Positions 3,281-30,191 of a stretch of DNA of 40,520 bases are shown here, piece after piece. Under the pieces are notes generated by a model. The model saw only the letters and a program-made list of their open reading frames with translations, was not told where the DNA came from and did no database searches. The stretch's first letter is position 1. Every line of letters starts with the position of its first letter. The translations under genes and the position numbers were made by a program. This stretch comes from a virus, in IMG/VR virus record IMGVR_UViG_3300047548_002254, positions 1-40,520 of that record, one strand, 5' to 3'.

Positions 3281-3340
3281 TGTGGATATTGCTGGTCAAT
3301 ACAAATGTGGGATTGATCCCTACTTGCGGTGTAGGATTTG
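3281..3340. promoter_or_regulatory. Repressor/early-gene switch region with three spaced repeats
   Basis: Related elements occur at 3281-3291 (TGTGGATATTG), 3306-3315 (TGTGGGATTG) and 3330-3340 (TGTAGGATTTG), with starts 25 and 24 bases apart. The middle one is part of an inverted repeat (GGGAT-TG-ATCCC, 3309-3320), and ATCCCTAC (3316-3323) is nearly the inverse of GTAGGAT (3331-3337). The region separates a leftward repressor from a rightward Cro-sized gene, so these are likely operator sites. No promoter hexamers stood out clearly enough to call. Confidence 0.55.
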
Positions 3341-3358
3341 AACGTCAATAACGGAGCT

Positions 3359-3586
3359 ATGACGCATCCTATCCTTCATGACATCGACGCCTTCCTCCGC
3401 CGCACCAACCTTTCAGAGACCTATTTTGGTCGCCAGGCGGCCAACGACTGGAAGCTGATCAGCCAGCTCAGGAAAGGCAGGCGCCTTTGGCCCCAGACCG
3501 AGCAGCGCATTCGCGACTTCATGGCCAGCTACCGCCCGCGCGGGGAGCGCAGTGCCGGCGTGGCGGGAGCTGCAAACCATGGTTGA
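3359..3586 (+). CDS. Cro-sized early regulatory protein
   Basis: This 75-residue protein is divergent from the repressor and the first gene of the rightward operon, the position of Cro. It contains a compact helical segment (about 5-55: FLRRTNLSETYFGRQAANDW, then ISQLRKGRRLWPQTEQRIRDF) resembling short helix-turn-helix proteins common in alphaproteobacteria that begin with a similar HPI motif. The ATG at 3359 has GGAG only 2 bases before it, which is very close; a TTG at 3338 preceded by AGGA would add seven residues, and leaderless initiation is also possible. A role as antirepressor or early repressor is inferred from position and size. Confidence 0.75.
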   Translation: MTHPILHDIDAFLRRTNLSETYFGRQAANDWKLISQLRKGRRLWPQTEQRIRDFMASYRPRGERSAGVAGAANHG

Positions 3587-3923
3587 GGACATCACTGCCG
3601 CAAGGCAGCAGGCAAGCCTGCCCAATGAAGATTTGCTCTGTGCCTGGCTTGATGCGGCCGAACCGGGCGAGCGCCTTGAATACCACCGCGGGTTTCTGGC
3701 GCGTGATGTCGATACGGCAAAGCCCCAGCGCCTGCCGGAATGGCGCCGCCAATCGCTGATGCGTCTTGCCGCTCGTGCCCGCTGGGCTGCCGAGAACGGG
3801 GTGGTGCACCTCGTTCAGATCCGCCGGGGCGCGGGCGATTTCAGTTACGTCGCGATCGCAAGGCCGAAGAGCCGAAAGGTCCAATCGATGATTGCCGCAC
3901 TCATGCTGCCCCAGGCGGCCTGA
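3579..3923 (+). CDS. Early phage protein, unknown function
   Basis: This 114-residue protein starts at an ATG overlapping the end of the Cro-sized gene by 8 bases, with GGGAG 9 bases before it. It is rich in Ala, Arg and Leu and appears mostly helical, with a polar N-terminal half (LCAWLDAAEPGERLEYHRGF) and a strand-like centre (NGVVHLVQIRRGAGDFSYVAIA). No family motif is recognised. Its place in the early operon, between a regulator and the recombination genes, suggests a DNA-metabolism or takeover accessory, but nothing in the sequence assigns a reaction. Confidence 0.7.
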   Translation: MVEDITAARQQASLPNEDLLCAWLDAAEPGERLEYHRGFLARDVDTAKPQRLPEWRRQSLMRLAARARWAAENGVVHLVQIRRGAGDFSYVAIARPKSRKVQSMIAALMLPQAA

Positions 3924-3930
3924 CGGAACA

Positions 3931-4009
3931 GGGGCAGTGGGGGCTAACCGCGAGGCGCCCACGGATATTCGATCGCCGCGTCAACCACTGCCCCGCCTTT
4001 GCTGGCGGG
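3931..4009 (+). promoter_or_regulatory. Structured leader with two competing hairpins
   Basis: GGGGCAGTGG (3931-3940) pairs perfectly over 10 bases with CCACTGCCCC (3985-3994). A second hairpin, CCCGCC (3992-3997) with GGCGGG (4004-4009) and a 6-base loop, shares bases 3992-3994 with the first, so the two are mutually exclusive at their tips. The sequence between the first arms can form an imperfect inner stem (CGCG-GGCG with CGCCGCG). No U-run follows, so this is not an intrinsic terminator. It fills the gap before the next gene. Confidence 0.45.
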
Positions 4010-4058
4010 ATTGCTGACGATTGATCACGCGCAACCACACAGACGAAAGGATCACACG

Positions 4059-4505
4059 ATGACACTTGAGGATCTGCCAACCCAGCCTCCTGCCACCCTT
4101 GATGCATTGCCAGTCGAAGTGCTGGCCCGCTTGCAGGGGCAGGCTCAGACCCGCCTTGCCGGCGCATCACAAATGGTCGCAATCCTCCATGGCGCGCTCA
4201 CCCGCCGCTATGCACAAGGTCTCAACGAGACCGGCACGCACCGGCGCACTGATGGCAACTACGAAATCCGCATCGATGTGCCCAAGAACGTCTCGTGGGA
4301 TCAGGACAAGCTGGCGAGCGCGATCGAGACCATCCGCAGCTGGGGCGAGAACCCCGCCGACTATGTCGAGACCAGGCTCTCGGTATCGGAGACCAGCTAC
4401 AAGGCCTGGCCGCCTGCGATCCGCGACCTGTTTATGCCTGCGCGCACAGTAAAACCGGGCAAGGCAAAGTTCGAGATCGCGCCCGGGATGAAGGAGGCAG
4501 CGTAA
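4059..4505 (+). CDS. Early phage protein upstream of the Sak4-like ATPase
   Basis: This 148-residue protein starts at the ATG at 4059, with AGGA upstream (AAAGGATCACACG). The N-terminal half is helical (LEVLARLQGQ-like segments), and the C-terminal half contains YEIRIDVPKNVSWDQDKLAS and SVSETSYKAWPPAIRDLF. I recognise it only as a phage protein of the type often found immediately before the Sak4-family ATPase in alphaproteobacterial prophages. Its stop overlaps the ATPase start (TAATG), so the two are translationally coupled and may act together. The 135-base gap before it holds the hairpins at 3931-4009. Confidence 0.75.
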   Translation: MTLEDLPTQPPATLDALPVEVLARLQGQAQTRLAGASQMVAILHGALTRRYAQGLNETGTHRRTDGNYEIRIDVPKNVSWDQDKLASAIETIRSWGENPADYVETRLSVSETSYKAWPPAIRDLFMPARTVKPGKAKFEIAPGMKEAA

Positions 4506-11429: not shown

Positions 11430-12263
11430 CTATCGCTCATTTTTAGTCTGTATTCCGAGCTGTTCTAGGGCCTCGGACAAGCCCGTCCTGTCAGTAGAGC
11501 CTGTGGCTAGAAACTGGACAATCGTCCCGTCCGCGATAGCTTGCCGATAGTCGAATGAAAGTTGCACACTGGACGGAAATTCGATCTCATTGCCATCCGA
11601 AAGCAAAAACCGGCCCATGCCGGGAGCGGATAGGGTCACGCGAAGCTCACGTTCGTTGCTGTAAATCTGATCTTTGAGATAGGCGTATTCTATTGGGTTT
11701 GCCGAACGGTTTTCGTTTCGACTGTACGTAGCGCTCTCGACATAGGTAACTTTGCCGTAGTTGATTGCAAAAAGTTGGTGACAGCTAACGCCATTGTATA
11801 GCAGCGCTGCTGGTCCAGAGAGGGTGCCGTTTAGGTGGTGGCGTAGTTTATCAAGGTCGAATTCTATGCCGATCTGGCCCATCCCGCTGCCGAGCGCATA
11901 GTTCTTCCAAATATACTCGGAATTTTCGAGGGAGAAGCAGCAAGCGTAAGTTCGAGCTCGAGATTGAGCATAGTAATCTGACAGGGTGTAGTCGGGTGCT
12001 TTTTCGAAACTTGCAGCTTGATTGGCAGGCTTATCCACTGGCAGTTCCGCGCCGTCATTGGCATCTGCCAATGGAAATCCTGTGTATGCATCCACCCGGT
12101 TGAAGTGGAGGTAACTGCCCTCAATCGACCGGATAAGGTGCTCGACCTGCATAATCTTGAAAAGTCGTTGGCCCGGATCTGGCTGGGTCAGCAGTTCAGC
12201 GTGTGGTTCAATCCCTCCAAGGAGTGTCAGTGGGAGATTGGCAACTGTCACCGAGGTGGACAT
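11430..12263 (-). CDS. DUF2971 domain protein
   Basis: This 277-residue protein fits the DUF2971 type: an N-terminal segment with LFKIMQVEHLIRSIEGSYLH and FNRVDAYTG, then CFSLENSEYIWKNYA followed by GQIGIEFDLDKLRHHL. The biochemical role of this family is not established. Here it is the third gene of a leftward unit behind a toxin-antitoxin pair, starting 13 bases after the PIN gene; I chose the ATG at 12263 for that reason (an upstream ATG at 12329 would overlap the toxin by 53 bases). Its codons look less GC-rich than the phage genes on both sides, which suggests an acquired insert. It opposes the direction of early and late transcription. Confidence 0.8.
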   Translation of the reverse strand: MSTSVTVANLPLTLLGGIEPHAELLTQPDPGQRLFKIMQVEHLIRSIEGSYLHFNRVDAYTGFPLADANDGAELPVDKPANQAASFEKAPDYTLSDYYAQSRARTYACCFSLENSEYIWKNYALGSGMGQIGIEFDLDKLRHHLNGTLSGPAALLYNGVSCHQLFAINYGKVTYVESATYSRNENRSANPIEYAYLKDQIYSNERELRVTLSAPGMGRFLLSDGNEIEFPSSVQLSFDYRQAIADGTIVQFLATGSTDRTGLSEALEQLGIQTKNER

Positions 12264-12276
12264 GGAACTCAAATTC

Positions 12277-12867
12277 TCAAAGCGATTCAATATGGGGTGC
12301 CAGGACCGAAGCGGTTTCCAGCAGTCCATGCGCCTCGAGCGACCGTAGCATGTCTTCCGGGGTGAGCTCCGGTCGCTTTAAGCGCAACCGCATGCGATTG
12401 ATCGCAGCGACAGCACGCCCCTCTTCAAGGGCGATAGTGTCAGCGATAAAGTCGTCCGCACTGCGTGCTTCGATCGCCAATGGCGAAAGAACAGATGCGG
12501 GGAAGTCCGACAGGTTCTCGGTTACGAGAGCTTGAGCTTGCGTTTTGATCGCTGCAGCCAGAACGTGCTCGTCGTTTCTATCCGGCAAGCCATAGGTCGT
12601 AGCCTCAAATAGACCGAAGTCCTCCACCAAAGCTTCCGGAAATGCGGCACGCATACTGGCGACAGACTGAGCGGCCCGCGTCTTGCTATCGGCAATGTCA
12701 CGCTCGTCCATCAAGCGTGTGATCGCCCGTTCTGTCTCTTCAAGAACATTCTCTGACCACCGCACACGGAAGAACTCGGCCTCAGCCAAAGTCAGGAGCA
12801 GATTCCTGCGCCACACGCTGACCAATGTGCATGCATCGATAAATGCGGTGTAGCGGTTGGCGAACAT
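12277..12867 (-). CDS. PIN-domain toxin (VapC-like ribonuclease)
   Basis: This 196-residue protein is a PIN-domain ribonuclease of toxin-antitoxin type. The acidic residues fit: Asp11 in AFIDACTLVS, Glu43/Glu44 in NVLEETERA, Asp96 and Asp99 in LPDRNDEHVLAAAI, and Asp121 in the typical VTENLSDFP motif. It is longer than classical VapC (about 130 residues), with a C-terminal extension of about 65 residues containing ARSADDFIADTIALEEGRA. It starts 9 bases after the antitoxin gene. PIN toxins cleave RNA (tRNA, rRNA or mRNA); the target here cannot be read from sequence. Inside a prophage it may act in plasmid-like maintenance or exclusion of other phages. Confidence 0.88.
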   Translation of the reverse strand: MFANRYTAFIDACTLVSVWRRNLLLTLAEAEFFRVRWSENVLEETERAITRLMDERDIADSKTRAAQSVASMRAAFPEALVEDFGLFEATTYGLPDRNDEHVLAAAIKTQAQALVTENLSDFPASVLSPLAIEARSADDFIADTIALEEGRAVAAINRMRLRLKRPELTPEDMLRSLEAHGLLETASVLAPHIESL

Positions 12868-12876
12868 GGCGTGTGA

Positions 12877-13335
12877 TCAGATCAGGTCCGCGTCGTTGCC
12901 AATCAGGGCATCCAACGCGCGAGCCCGTTCCTCATCTCGCTTTGCCTTGTAGTCAAAAATGTTCTCAGCCTTAATTCTGCGGTGCCGGCCGACAAAGGTA
13001 TGGGGGATCGAATCCTGTTCCAGTAATTTGATCAGGTGAGGCCGAGAGACGTTCAGTAGATCGGCGGCCTGCTGTGTGGTCAGCATCTCCTGGATTGGTA
13101 CCAACGTGACGGCATGGCCGCTGCCAATGTGTCGAAGGAGTTCGAGGAAGATATCTGACATCGCCGGGGTAAGGGTGACTTCGACTGGTTTTTGCGTCTC
13201 GGGCTCACGCACGCGTAGAGTGGCTTCGCCGGATTTTTGAGCAGCGAGCATCCGGCGCAGTTGGTTAGCAATCTGGCGATCGCTGGCAGACGGCAATTGG
13301 CCGCCGAAGGGCTCAGAATGCGCTGGCAAGGTCAT
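12877..13335 (-). CDS. Excisionase-type HTH antitoxin
   Basis: This 152-residue protein carries an excisionase/MerR-like helix-turn-helix at about 88-130 (TTQQAADLLNVSRPHLIKLL, then RHRRIKAENIFDY), preceded by a helical N-terminal region and a predicted strand pair (EATLRVREPETQKPVEVTL). This domain order is known for antitoxins paired with PIN toxins of the longer type, and the toxin gene follows within 9 bases. GGAG lies 7 bases before the ATG. Autoregulation is expected for this class; a near-palindrome TATTCGAAATA at 13371-13381 upstream is a possible binding site. A stand-alone regulator is the alternative, but the pairing makes antitoxin more likely. Confidence 0.85.
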   Translation of the reverse strand: MTLPAHSEPFGGQLPSASDRQIANQLRRMLAAQKSGEATLRVREPETQKPVEVTLTPAMSDIFLELLRHIGSGHAVTLVPIQEMLTTQQAADLLNVSRPHLIKLLEQDSIPHTFVGRHRRIKAENIFDYKAKRDEERARALDALIGNDADLI

Positions 13336-18166: not shown

Positions 18167-19423
18167 ATGGATCAGGACTGGCCGGCCCAGAGCAACGAGC
18201 TCTGGCCGATAGAGAAGATCACGCCTTATGCGCGCAATTCCCGCTCGCACTCGGACGAGCAGGTCGCGCAGATTGCGGCCTCAATCCGCGAATGGGGCTG
18301 GACCAACCCGATCCTCGTCGATGAAGACGGCGGCCTGATCGCCGGCCACGGCCGACTGCTTGCCGCGCGCAAGCTCGGTCTCACCCAGATCCCGACCATG
18401 GTCGCCAAGGGCTGGAGCGAAGCGCAGAAAAAGGCCTACGTCATTGCTGACAACAAGCTGGCGCTGAACGCCGGCTGGGACCTCGAACTGCTGGCCGTCG
18501 AACTCGGCGACCTGCAGGGTTTCAACTTTGATCTGCGGCTAACCGGCTTTTCCGACGACGAACTGGGCAAGCTGCTGGCCGAAAAGACCGAGGGCGAGAC
18601 TGACCCTGACGACATTCCTGAGGCTCCTGCAGATCCTGTCGCCAAACCCGGCGATGTCTGGCTACTCGGCAAGCACCGGCTGGTCTGCGGTGACAGCACC
18701 GATGCCGGCACTGTGGCCAAAGCCCTGAACGGTGTCACGCCCCACCTGATGATCACCGATCCGCCCTATGGCGTCGAATATGACCCCGCCTGGCGTGAGC
18801 GGGCCGGGGTTACTTCAAGCGGTACAGCCAAAGGCAAGGTGCTCAATGACGACAAGGCCGACTGGCGTGAAGCCTGGGCCCTGTTCCCGGGAGAAGTCGC
18901 CTATGTCTGGCACGCTGGCTTATTCGCCGGCGTCGTCGGGGACAGCCTGATTGCCTGCGATTTTCAACTCCGCTCCCAGATCATCTGGGCCAAAAGCCAT
19001 GCACCCATGTCGCGCGGTAATTACCACTGGCGCCACGAGCCCTGCTGGTACGCGGTCAAAAAGGGCGCGAACGGGCATTGGGAAGGTGATCGTAAGCAGA
19101 ACACTGTTTGGGAAATCGCCAAGCCGCAGAAGAATGAGACAGGTCACGGCACACAGAAGCCGGTCGAATGCATGAAACGTCCGATCGAGAACAATTCTAG
19201 CCCCGGTCAGGCGGTCTATGAGCCGTTCTCTGGTTCGGGCACTACTATCATCGCCGGTGAAATGACGGGCCGATCGGTTCACGCGATTGAGCTAAACCCG
19301 GCTTACGTCGATGTGGCGATCAAGCGCTGGCAGGATTTTACGGGCCTTGAAGCTGTGCTTGAAGAGAATGGCCGAACGTTCAATTCAATCTCGGGGGCGA
19401 TTGAGACGGTCTGCGCCAGTTAA
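18167..19423 (+). CDS. ParB-domain DNA methyltransferase (N4-cytosine or N6-adenine)
   Basis: This 418-residue protein joins a ParB/Srx-like N-terminal domain (about 10-110, with NPILVDEDGGLIAGHGRLLA and VIADNKLALNAGWD) to a DNA methyltransferase. The catalytic motif DPPYG is near residue 204 and the SAM-binding FSGSGTT near 355, so the order is DPPY then FxGxG (beta class). HGTQKPVECM before motif I is typical. Such orphan enzymes near phage terminase genes usually protect or mark phage DNA. No restriction partner is visible. Its stop overlaps the convergent nuclease gene by 4 bases. Confidence 0.92.
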   Translation: MDQDWPAQSNELWPIEKITPYARNSRSHSDEQVAQIAASIREWGWTNPILVDEDGGLIAGHGRLLAARKLGLTQIPTMVAKGWSEAQKKAYVIADNKLALNAGWDLELLAVELGDLQGFNFDLRLTGFSDDELGKLLAEKTEGETDPDDIPEAPADPVAKPGDVWLLGKHRLVCGDSTDAGTVAKALNGVTPHLMITDPPYGVEYDPAWRERAGVTSSGTAKGKVLNDDKADWREAWALFPGEVAYVWHAGLFAGVVGDSLIACDFQLRSQIIWAKSHAPMSRGNYHWRHEPCWYAVKKGANGHWEGDRKQNTVWEIAKPQKNETGHGTQKPVECMKRPIENNSSPGQAVYEPFSGSGTTIIAGEMTGRSVHAIELNPAYVDVAIKRWQDFTGLEAVLEENGRTFNSISGAIETVCAS

Positions 19424-19932
19424 CAGGAGATCCACCCATAACGCTTTACAGCATGCCCATCGCGAATTTGAGCGCAGGAGAGGTCTTCACCCTTTGCTGT
19501 GCAGCGGGCTACAATCCGGCCGTACCGATCGGTGTCGGTTTGCTCACAGAGGACCTTTGATCCGCCAATCAGCTGTTCAAGATTCGCCTGGCTGGCGTAG
19601 GGATCACCGGGGGTACATTGACGACCCGGTCGGCAGTGGCCTGGCATTTCGGGTGCATCAATTCCTTCGAGTCTGATGCGGTTCTGGCCGCAGCGGATGG
19701 TATCGCCATCCGTCACTTCGGCGGAGGAGCAAACGATATCCGCCGCCTCAGCAGATGAAGCAGACGGCAATCCGCTGACCAGGCCAAAGCCTGCGAAGCC
19801 CCCAATGATCAGGCCGCCAACTATCCATGGCAAGTGACGCAGGCGCCGCTTCCGGCGCGGCTTTGCCTTGGCGGGTTTCCAACCGCGTAGCTGTGTGACG
19901 TTGTTCGGCGCCCGGCGCCCCCTGTTCCTCAT
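19420..19932 (-). CDS. Membrane-anchored thermonuclease-like (SNase) protein
   Basis: This 170-residue protein has a basic N-terminus (KPRRKRRLRHLP), one hydrophobic segment (about 35-55) and then a staphylococcal-nuclease domain: VTDGDTIRC (Asp75, Asp78), IRLEGIDAPE (Arg87, Asp92, Glu95) and DRYGRIVARC (Arg139). Eight cysteines in the last 105 residues point to an oxidising compartment, so the domain is probably periplasmic. The gene is antisense to the methyltransferase and terminase genes and probably has its own promoter. It may degrade incoming or environmental DNA. A host-derived nuclease picked up as a moron is the alternative to a phage gene proper. Confidence 0.88.
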   Translation of the reverse strand: MRNRGRRAPNNVTQLRGWKPAKAKPRRKRRLRHLPWIVGGLIIGGFAGFGLVSGLPSASSAEAADIVCSSAEVTDGDTIRCGQNRIRLEGIDAPEMPGHCRPGRQCTPGDPYASQANLEQLIGGSKVLCEQTDTDRYGRIVARCTAKGEDLSCAQIRDGHAVKRYGWISC

Positions 19933-27613: not shown

Positions 27614-28075
27614 ATGACCGTTCGGACTTCCGCCGGCACCACCTTGAAGGTGTCGGCCTCTACCCCTGCGACTTTTGACGCCACCGGCTACAATGCGCTG
27701 ACCATGACTGTGGTCGGCGAAGTATCCGACCTTGGCGAGTTCGGCCGCGAGTTCAATCTCGTTACCTTCAATCCCGTCGGTAGCCGCGGCGTGGTCAAGA
27801 AGAAGGGCAGCTTCAACCAGGGTACGATGACGATCCAGCTCGGCCTCGATACCGACGATGCCGGTCAGATCCTGCTGAAGTCCGCCTCCCTCTCGGACAG
27901 CGACCACAGCTTCCTCGTCACCACCCAGAACGGCGACAAGTACTACTTCCAGGCGCAGGTGATGAGCTTCAAGGTCAATGTCGGTTCGGTCGACCAGATC
28001 ACCACTGCCTCCGTGACCCTCGAACTCACTACCAACTCCGCCGGTGTGGGCATTGTCGAGGTGCTAGCGCCGTGA
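27614..28075 (+). CDS. Major tail (tube) protein
   Basis: This 153-residue protein is the tail tube subunit by sequence pattern and place: GTTLKVSASTPATFDATGYN, VVGEVSDLGEFGREFNLVTF, GVVKKKGSFNQGTMTIQLGL, then a C-terminal strand region ending SVTLELTTNSAGVGIVEVLA. It polymerises on the tape measure. AAGGA is about 10 bases before the ATG. It is followed by a 105-base gap and an inserted cargo block, not directly by the chaperone gene. Confidence 0.9.
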   Translation: MTVRTSAGTTLKVSASTPATFDATGYNALTMTVVGEVSDLGEFGREFNLVTFNPVGSRGVVKKKGSFNQGTMTIQLGLDTDDAGQILLKSASLSDSDHSFLVTTQNGDKYYFQAQVMSFKVNVGSVDQITTASVTLELTTNSAGVGIVEVLAP

Positions 28076-28180
28076 TCTGGTAGTGCATCGGTCGCTGCGC
28101 GAAAGATTACTTGGGAATTGCAGAGGTTGCGTGATGGAATTTACCAGTTAAACCTGCTGTTTGAATAGGGGAGTGGGGAA

Positions 28181-28864
28181 ATGCTGGCAAAACTTGAGCA
28201 GGTTTACCTTGCAGTGCTTCGAGTTGTCATTCTCGTGGCTGCAACCATTGCGTTGGTTGTCGCCGCGTTCGGTACGATCGGAGCCATTCCTCCCCTTATC
28301 AAATGGGCTGGGCTTACCGATGTCACGGCACCAACGGGCGGGACCCTTGGTGAGTTCATAAGAGAAATGAAGGCTTCTGGGACCAGTGAAGATCTTCCCA
28401 ATACTACCACGACCACAACAGTCATCACAATACAGCCGGATATCAATGCGGCGGCTACCAATCTGAAGAAGTATCTTGGCGATCGTACCCGCCTTACTAC
28501 AGATCAGATCGCAGAAGGCCTGCAGGGCTTCGCCGATGAATATCCACTGCACTCGGATGCCTATGCCAAGAGCGTAAGGGCTCTCACTGAAGAACTGCTG
28601 GTCAGTAAGGGCAAGCCCATGAGCGAAGCACGGATCTCAGAGCTGCTAGCCTGGCACAATAAGCGATTTGAAGCTGATATTCAGCTTCGCGCTGCGGAGC
28701 AGGCTGAAGGAAACTCGAAGTTCCTGATGACCATCGGAGTGGCAGCGATCTCCTTCTTGGCTTTCGTACTGATCATCTTCATCTTCCTTTTCGTGAAGAT
28801 CGAGCGGAATCTCCGACCAGTGCGGGCCAATTCACCGGTGGAAGAACCCAGCGAAAATGCCTGA
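28181..28864 (+). CDS. Two-TM membrane protein of the tail-operon insert
   Basis: This 227-residue protein has two clear membrane segments, near residues 13-38 (VVILVAATIALVVAAFG...) and 182-204 (IGVAAISFLAFVLIIFIFLF). The loop of about 140 residues between them contains a Thr run (NTTTTTTVITI) and helices (NLKKYLGDRTRLTTDQIAEG). GGGAG precedes the ATG. The last 8 bases overlap the lipoprotein gene, so both are expressed together. No phage family is recognised. Its base composition is less GC-rich than the tail genes around it. An envelope function such as exclusion of other phages is possible but unproven. Confidence 0.8.
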   Translation: MLAKLEQVYLAVLRVVILVAATIALVVAAFGTIGAIPPLIKWAGLTDVTAPTGGTLGEFIREMKASGTSEDLPNTTTTTTVITIQPDINAAATNLKKYLGDRTRLTTDQIAEGLQGFADEYPLHSDAYAKSVRALTEELLVSKGKPMSEARISELLAWHNKRFEADIQLRAAEQAEGNSKFLMTIGVAAISFLAFVLIIFIFLFVKIERNLRPVRANSPVEEPSENA

Positions 28865-29450
28865 GCGGCTTTCTGCGGCTGGCGTTGCTGCGATTGCTGC
28901 CTCGCTGTTGCTCCTCGCTGGATGCGGCAACTCTAAAGGCGGCCCGGTTGACACCACGCTTCCGGATGAGACTTCAAGTGTAGCTGCGCCTGAGGTTGCG
29001 AGCGAGGAAGGACCGGTGACCCAACAGGAGGGTTCTTCGGCCCTGGCGACCGAGGAACAGCCGAAAAAACCGCGAATGAGGTCGCCGGTTGATCCTTATA
29101 GTGAAGGTCAGGTCGCTTCCAGTGAAGGACCTGGCCAGCGCTCGACATACACGGCCCGTCAGGCAACACCGATTGGCAATCCGGGGTATTGGATTGGAAC
29201 GAGCGATTACCCCACCAGGGCGCTTCGGGAAGAACAGGAAGGTACAAGTCGGTTTCGATTGACTGTGGACCAAGACGGAAGGGTCTCTGACTGCACTATC
29301 ACCCAATCCAGCGGCTTCATGGATCTCGACGAAGCCACCTGCGCCAACGTGAGGCGGCGGGCACGGTTCAGGCCGGCAACTGATGATACTGGCACACCCG
29401 TAGAGGGATATTATTCCAGTGCAGTTCGTTGGAGTATCCCCAGAGAATAA
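28857..29450 (+). CDS. TonB-C-domain lipoprotein
   Basis: This 197-residue protein has a signal peptide with lipobox LLAGC (Cys23), a long disordered region rich in Ser, Glu and Pro, and a TonB C-terminal-like domain (about 115-197): YPTRALREEQEGTSRFRLTV, DGRVSDCTITQSSGFMDLDE, then RRRARFRPATDDTG. Ordinary TonB is held in the inner membrane by a TM helix and contacts ExbB/ExbD; this one would be held by a lipid anchor instead. It is coupled to the two-TM gene. It could interfere with TonB-dependent outer-membrane receptors, which many phages use, but that is inference. Confidence 0.82.
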   Translation: MPERLSAAGVAAIAASLLLLAGCGNSKGGPVDTTLPDETSSVAAPEVASEEGPVTQQEGSSALATEEQPKKPRMRSPVDPYSEGQVASSEGPGQRSTYTARQATPIGNPGYWIGTSDYPTRALREEQEGTSRFRLTVDQDGRVSDCTITQSSGFMDLDEATCANVRRRARFRPATDDTGTPVEGYYSSAVRWSIPRE

Positions 29451-29538
29451 AGACTTCAGAAAGCCTCAGAGCAGGAATGATGCGCCGCGTGGCTCAGTCG
29501 CCCTTCGATTTCGACCCAGCGCATTTTGTCAAAAGTTA

Positions 29539-29624
29539 TGGTGCGGATGGCGGGACTCGAACCCGCACGAGGATACCCTCACAAGATTTTAAGTCTCGGG
29601 CGTCTACCATTCCGCCACATCCGC
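29539..29624 (-). tRNA. tRNA-Leu (anticodon TAA)
   Basis: The minus strand gives an 86-nt type II tRNA with encoded CCA. Acceptor GCGGATG pairs perfectly with CATCCGC, the D-arm region is TGGCGGAATGGTAGACGC (leucine-type), the anticodon stem-loop is AGA-CTTAAAA-TCT with anticodon TAA, then a long variable arm and T-arm GGTTCGAGTCC. It reads UUA and UUG. It is antisense to the tail operon. Confidence 0.94.
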
Positions 29625-29639
29625 TTGGCCATACCGGCA

Positions 29640-29724
29640 TGGTGCGGGCGAAGGGACTCGAACCCCCACGCTATTAGGCGCCAGAACCTAAATCTGGTGC
29701 GTCTACCAATTTCGCCACGCCCGC
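29640..29724 (-). tRNA. tRNA-Leu (anticodon TAG)
   Basis: The minus strand gives an 85-nt type II tRNA with encoded CCA. Acceptor GCGGGCG pairs perfectly with CGCCCGC, the D-region is leucine-type (GAAATTGGTAGACGC), and the anticodon arm CCAGA-TTTAGGT-TCTGG gives anticodon TAG. A long variable arm and GGTTCGAGTCC follow. It reads CUA and other CUN codons. It lies 15 bases from the neighbouring tRNA-Leu, in the same direction. Confidence 0.94.
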
Positions 29725-29774
29725 ACGGCCAGCGCCTTTCCCAGATCCCTACCAGATTGCCAAGGAGAACATGC

Positions 29775-30191
29775 ATGTTCGATATCACTACGCTTGCCGC
29801 CACCGAGACTTCGATCGTCGAGCTCGTCGGCGGCGATGACGCCCCGCTCTATGACGACAAGGGCAAGCGGCTAACAATCACGGTCTACGGCCCGGGCACC
29901 AAGGTCTATCAGCGCGCCCAGCAGCGTCAGCAGAACCAGCTGATGGACAAGATCAAGAAGCGCGGGAAGATGGACCAGTCGGCCGAGGAAAAGCTAGCCG
30001 AGCAGGCTGATTTCCTCGCTGCCTGCACCGTCAGCTTCAACGGCTTTTCCTATCCGCCCGCCGACGGCCTCGAAGGCCAGGACCTGTTCCGCAAGGCCTA
30101 TGCCGATCCCTCGATCGGCTTCATCGCCGCCCAGGTTGCTGCCCACATCAATGACTGGGCAAATTTTACGAAGAGCTCGGCAGAGAGCTGA
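29775..30191 (+). CDS. Tail assembly chaperone (G analogue)
   Basis: This 138-residue protein starts at the in-frame ATG at 29775, with AAGGAG 7 bases before it. It sits directly before the tape measure, as lambda G does. The sequence is soluble and helical (YQRAQQRQQNQLMDKIKKRG, LAEQADFLAACTVSFNGFSY). Near its end, A_AAT_TTT (30161-30167) lies in the right phase for -1 slippage, which would join residues 1-131 to the T region. Unshifted product ends TKSSAES. G and GT together prevent tape measure aggregation. Confidence 0.88.
   Translation: MFDITTLAATETSIVELVGGDDAPLYDDKGKRLTITVYGPGTKVYQRAQQRQQNQLMDKIKKRGKMDQSAEEKLAEQADFLAACTVSFNGFSYPPADGLEGQDLFRKAYADPSIGFIAAQVAAHINDWANFTKSSAES
30161..30167 (+). 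other. Programmed -1 frameshift slippery site
   Basis: The heptamer AAATTTT is read as GCA AAT TTT in the chaperone frame, matching X XXY YYZ. Slipping back one base after TTT continues TAC GAA GAG CTC into the open T frame without a stop. No strong downstream hairpin was found; only a weak AGCT stem is visible. Confidence 0.85.

Follow-up and report, generated by a model that had tools for sequence, protein, structure and literature searches.

A two-gene cassette is inserted between the tail tube and tail chaperone genes of a temperate phage whose host affiliation is sphingomonad. It codes for a predicted inner-membrane protein with two transmembrane (TM) segments and for a predicted lipoprotein that ends in a TonB domain. 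The pair is accessory (moron) cargo, being absent from close relatives and having a distinct composition and a separate history. On sequence comparison, it belongs to an undescribed modular family in which a constant two-TM protein is accompanied by lipoproteins with exchangeable C-terminal domains (C-domains).

An accessory-gene slot in the tail operon

The analysed stretch of DNA (hereafter the window, 40,520 bases) is an entire virus record, and its serine recombinase, S24-type repressor, portal and terminase genes indicate a temperate phage. The tail tube gene lies at 27614-28075 (PHROG 158, E=8e-17) and the tail chaperone gene, a weaker match, at 29775-30191 (PHROG 313, E=0.0014). The original prediction had placed a two-TM protein and a TonB-domain lipoprotein between them, in overlapping genes and in less GC-rich sequence, and this was borne out throughout. 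Both ORFs are on the plus strand, at 28181..28864 (227 aa) and 28857..29450 (197 aa), the second starting 8 bp inside the first; the TM segments and the TonB_C match were recovered, and the GC content of the pair is 53-57% vs approximately 63% around it. Two minus-strand tRNA-Leu genes beside the pair (29539-29724) had been overlooked, namely tRNA-Leu(TAA) at 29539..29624 and tRNA-Leu(TAG) at 29640..29724. Both also occur without the pair in relatives, the same slot holding the tRNA pair alone in six other phages.

The slot extends from 28076 to 29774 and measures 30 bp in empty relatives. Relatives were collected with the tail tube and with the chaperone as queries, the gap was measured in the 89 viral contigs that span it, and Pfam and PADLOC served to check what the cargo is. 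The claim that tube and chaperone are normally adjacent fits the 35 of 89 contigs with a gap of just 30-33 bp; four more have 78-82 bp and no gene. The most frequent cargo is a DUF4172-Fic protein (16/89), of two kinds found in 6 and 10 contigs, one Fic cargo protein matching the PADLOC SoFic model (1e-38). Xre-RES toxin-antitoxin genes occupy 10/89 slots, with Xre lacking RES in 2/89, and 11/89 hold tRNA-Leu genes alone, either as the pair or as a variant of it. The two-TM/lipoprotein pair together with the tRNAs is found in 2/89, the window and L059 (the same contig as L003, below). The remaining slots hold a small periplasmic-type protein (3/89), MucR (one), DUF5677 (one), short unassigned inserts (three) or, in a single composite slot, both Xre-RES and Fic. 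Cargo sits on either strand, and the slot is also present in genome-derived relatives. Most of these are assigned to Sphingomonadales and other alphaproteobacteria, and one has a YnfA-like gene in the slot. The site is empty in phages whose tube protein is 100% identical, which indicates that the cargo turns over fast.

Some slots have features of their own. The composite one (L070, 3406-6145) has the order Xre-RES, a second but partial tail tube gene, Fic gene, which suggests that cargo was gained there through recombination between tube copies. In two others, tRNA-Leu(TAA) (L010, 2719-2985; L030, 4000-4267) carries an identical 20-base insertion in the would-be D-loop, and for this reason ARAGORN finds one tRNA only in these slots; the insertion recurs in different phages. 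Elsewhere in the window, a lower-GC block (51-56%) at 11430-13335 on the minus strand codes for a PIN_3 protein, an HTH_17 protein and a 299-aa unknown protein. The first two are likely a toxin-antitoxin pair, and the block is probably a second cargo region. In addition, the minus strand at 19423-19932, immediately ahead of the terminase genes, codes for a homologue of staphylococcal nuclease that has a hydrophobic segment at its N terminus.

Recurrence of the pair in other phages, which the original prediction had proposed to check, was found: the whole cassette is present at the same site in L003, with the same gene order, the same tRNAs and approximately 80-81% DNA identity. The proteins are 91% (two-TM) and 59% (lipoprotein) identical, and within the lipoprotein the TonB domain is better conserved (73%) than the N-terminal part (48%). 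A third contig is near-identical (98.8% over 3.4 kb). Between the window and L003, pS is 0.72 in the two-TM gene and 0.42-0.48 in the flanking phage genes, which means that the history of the cassette has been separate for longer than that of the genes around it, and that it was exchanged.

The two-TM protein and the lipoprotein

The hydropathy of the two-TM protein (Kyte-Doolittle, 19-residue windows) rises above 1.6 near residues 1-41 and 178-212 and nowhere else. Together with the family alignment, this gives a layout with TM1 at approximately residues 10-34, a periplasmic helical loop of approximately 145 aa and TM2 at approximately residues 180-205; the C-terminal residues are KIERNLR. 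Searches of Pfam, NCBIfam, PADLOC and PDB sequences returned no match, and those of phage and plasmid records nothing convincing. The AlphaFold models, one for each protein of the pair and built on two sequences, are weak (mean pLDDT 51 and 48). The protein is strongly constrained, since pN between the window and L003 is 0.056 against the pS given above (omega approximately 0.025), a pattern pointing to strong purifying selection, and by sequence it appears to be the founder of an undescribed family. A consensus scan gave no promoter and no convincing terminator. It missed a weak candidate promoter of the form TTGCGT-16-TARACC, which reads TTGCGT-16-TAAACC at 28127..28154 on the plus strand of the window and TTGCGT-16-TAGACC in the L003 alignment.

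The second protein has a lipobox (LAGC, 28914..28925) in which Cys23 is followed by Gly. The lipobox is conserved in L003, and the Cys in all the partner lipoproteins described below. A VDTT motif (28947..28958), also common to them, lies shortly past the lipid anchor. The lipobox stands in place of an N-terminal TM helix, there is no further TM segment, and the linker has a mixed E/S/T/P composition. Residues 117-193 (29205..29435) match PF03544 TonB_C with E=5.1e-18 (65.7 bits, cut-off 24.6). In ten genomes searched, the C-domain is most closely related to TonBs that have a TM helix at the N terminus and a proline-rich spacer, the nearest being 63% identical to the C-domain and encoded by a gene that is followed by an ExbB-like gene. 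Among seven sphingomonad TonB domains, 18 columns never vary; both phage proteins retain every one of them, the YP motif and the two cysteines included, and the top matches of a profile built from the phage lipoproteins are solved TonB structures (4e-5). A two-sequence AlphaFold model, of low overall confidence, has the beta-beta-alpha-beta order in the TonB domain (pLDDT approximately 60-75); Foldseek gave no significant match, and TonB chains appear solely among the insignificant ones. Judged from its sequence, the C-domain is an intact TonB receptor-binding domain of host type.

With a lipid anchor in place of the motor-coupled helix, the known way of energising TonB is closed to this domain. 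As a candidate TonB energy transducer, the lipoprotein was rejected: TonB_C is present, but the N-terminal TM helix, the spacer and exbB/exbD are not, and neither ExbB nor ExbD was matched in Pfam and NCBIfam searches at the pair.

Homologs of the two-TM protein and their partner lipoproteins

A first scan of genome contigs with exact peptide patterns found nothing, probably because the patterns were strict, and distant homologs of the two-TM protein surfaced only by whole-genome search. They are present in four sphingomonad genomes (approximately 55, 43, 34 and 39% identity) and in one P22-like phage (30%), whose pair is encoded on the opposite strand and flanked by structural genes. With the window and L003, the family comprises seven distinct loci, G958 being excluded. 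This genome codes (L187, 1414-2502) for a chromosomal 362-aa protein with similar two-TM ends, a larger loop and no lipoprotein partner, possibly an ancestor of the two-TM protein of the cassette. Homologs of the two-TM protein were found in 3/301, 4/401 (including the partial G958 match) and 4/301 (an overlapping sample) genomes sampled within families, in 2/401 sampled within the order, and in 1/11, 1/10 (plus the partial G958 match) and 1/5 inside the genera concerned. The class sample (385 genomes) gave no full-length homolog and one weak partial match. Homologs thus appear to be rare and sporadic.

At each of the seven loci, the two-TM gene is followed by genes for one or two lipoproteins, nine in total. 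All that these have in common is the lipid Cys and, approximately 6-12 residues after it, a VDT[TS] motif; residue +2 past the Cys varies (G, S, E, D, A). As a control, 80 distinct lipobox-like ORFs were taken from 2.0 Mb of fetched DNA, in which two-TM loci are over-represented. VDT[TS] occurs within 20 residues of the Cys in 7/80, every one in two-TM loci. The C-domains differ: TonB in the window and L003, a weak carboxypeptidase-regulatory-like match in L184, a Cys-rich domain common to L177 and L178 (E=1e-13 for the protein pair), and several unassigned. Moreover, the L181 two-TM protein is accompanied by a minimal lipoprotein with no C-domain. In the family alignment, neither TM segment has a conserved charged residue mid-helix.

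Two of the loci lie near defence genes. In the genomic island L177, which also codes for an integrase, PsyrT (3e-270) and PsyrA (8e-128) come after the pair. In L178, a type I restriction enzyme and a DUF262-like protein are encoded upstream of the pair and an integrase downstream. No defence gene was recognised in the neighbourhoods of L176, where the pair adjoins a tRNA-Thr gene, and L184, where it lies between zapE-like and mdh-like genes. By guilt by association at these few loci, the family may belong to a defence context. Downstream of the L176 pair (3337-4266, minus strand, genome G262) are genes for a secreted-type PDZ/SHOCT protein and a GIY-YIG-like protein.

Possible functions and relation to known systems

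The reading that we favour, tentatively and at slightly less than an even chance, is that the phage carries one version of this modular family as a moron for superinfection exclusion. Expressed in the lysogen, the lipoprotein would be lipidated and then held or positioned by its two-TM partner via the VDT[TS] motif, a putative docking site, while its C-domain would bind an envelope target in the periplasm. In the window, the unenergised TonB domain would pair with TonB-box strands as TonB does, competing with it and transmitting no energy. Receptors occupied in this way could keep TonB-requiring phages out and alter uptake, the exclusion being the presumed benefit. A lipid-anchored, unenergised TonB domain is a reasonable competitor for TonB boxes given its relationship to host TonB and the intact invariant positions. 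Howard and colleagues reportedly found in 2001 that periplasmic TonB fragments are inhibitory in E. coli. TonB boxes bind TonB beta3 through strand pairing, and phage T1 adsorbs only reversibly to tonB mutants (PMC11658791). The lipoprotein Llp of phage T5 jams the TonB-dependent receptor FhuA from the periplasm, and Cor of T1 and phi80 is thought to act like Llp (PMC9586334). Since T1 needs tonB and receptor-jamming phage lipoproteins are known, superinfection exclusion is the most economical function. Against it, the slot cargo is partly non-defence (a MucR regulator, a YnfA-like protein, tRNAs), and the other C-domains of the family show no hint of TonB. The original prediction of a lipid-anchored TonB mimic holds for the C-domain, which by sequence is TonB at 18/18 invariant positions, but is too narrow for the pair as a whole, TonB being just one of several C-domains in the paired lipoproteins. 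If the favoured reading is correct, the phage would have captured a TonB domain from a host and, by means of a lipid anchor, made it a decoy for receptors; the family would be a mobile system that changes its target when a single domain of the lipoprotein is swapped, its membrane partner remaining constant.

A wider scheme, categorically new and in our estimate possible but on the doubtful side, is a modular envelope defence in which VDT[TS]-tagged lipoproteins swap C-domains and so retarget a constant two-TM partner towards different components of the envelope.

The main rival to a decoy, which we regard as unlikely, divides the pair into a variable sensor and a two-TM effector: the C-domain would sense that a component of the envelope is disturbed (in the window, that a TonB receptor is loaded) and trigger a membrane-damaging two-TM protein that aborts the infection. 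The strong conservation of the two-TM protein (omega approximately 0.025), beside a lipoprotein whose N-terminal part is 48% identical and C-domains that vary by locus, is in line with such a division, as are the minimal lipoprotein kept in L181 and the two lipoproteins encoded at some loci; no known effector fold was recognised in the two-TM protein, however, and its model is poor. Rather less probable still is a lysogenic conversion unrelated to defence, in which the pair would tune nutrient import, e.g. by damping TonB-dependent receptors, to the benefit of the host. The intact, host-type TonB domain and the non-defence genes among the cargo agree with this, whereas the presence of toxin-antitoxin, Fic, PsyrTA and restriction genes alongside it and the mostly non-TonB-like C-domains elsewhere in the family do not.

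That the pair is a two-component spanin or another lysis pair is very improbable. Its gene order and overlap recall Rz/Rz1, but it has two TM segments instead of one, a large lipoprotein with a TonB domain and a position in the tail operon, 8 kb from the endolysin (CHAP/NlpC) and a small candidate holin; homologs lie in genomic islands and chromosomal loci, and close relatives lack the pair. We give equally little credence to the idea that the two-TM protein is the motor of an alternative, energised TonB system. A TonB domain does adjoin an inner-membrane protein, but the lipoprotein has no TM segment for motor coupling, neither ExbB nor ExbD was matched, the TM segments of the family lack a conserved mid-helix charge, and the same two-TM partner is found with unrelated lipoproteins. 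Finally, host DNA or an assembly chimera with no phage function, which lower GC, tRNA genes and a host-type TonB domain could suggest, is refuted by recurrence: an independent, approximately 80% identical contig and the near-identical third one have the cassette at this very site. It is further opposed by the tRNA pair standing alone in the slot of six other phages and by the strong purifying selection.

The statement that no system of this kind has been described was too strong, given Llp and Cor (PMC9586334). Like these proteins of T5, T1 and phi80, the window lipoprotein is phage-encoded and would act in the periplasm on TonB-dependent receptors, and by analogy the pair may work as they do. 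Llp is small, binds the FhuA plug and leaves the TonB box untouched (PMC9586334), whereas the window lipoprotein has what by sequence is a true TonB domain, and a two-TM partner; none of the lipoproteins listed in that paper is a TonB-domain mimic with such a partner, and a PHROG search gave no Llp or Cor match. Neither protein of the pair matches the PADLOC models of known anti-phage defence. With the TonB of sphingomonad hosts, the lipoprotein shares the C-domain (63% identity, 18/18 invariant positions); host TonB has a TM helix, a proline-rich spacer and an ExbB-like neighbour, in contrast to the lipid anchor, absent spacer and phage-gene neighbours seen here. Ltp of the S. thermophilus phage TP-J34 is likewise a prophage moron lipoprotein and excludes other phages, but it is Gram-positive, encoded by a single gene, reported to target the incoming tape measure protein and shares no domain with the window lipoprotein (PMC3952083). 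Rz/Rz1 spanins also consist of an inner-membrane protein followed by an overlapping lipoprotein gene, and the pair differs from them in topology, size, location and its presence outside phages.

The slot itself was not found in a literature search. Its presence in many alphaproteobacterial phages allows direct mining for accessory genes, including toxin-antitoxin and Fic genes. It resembles the prophage accessory slots and morons known to carry defence genes in being a defined slot among core genes with interchangeable cargo, toxin-antitoxin and Fic genes included, and differs from them in its position between the tail tube and the tail chaperone.
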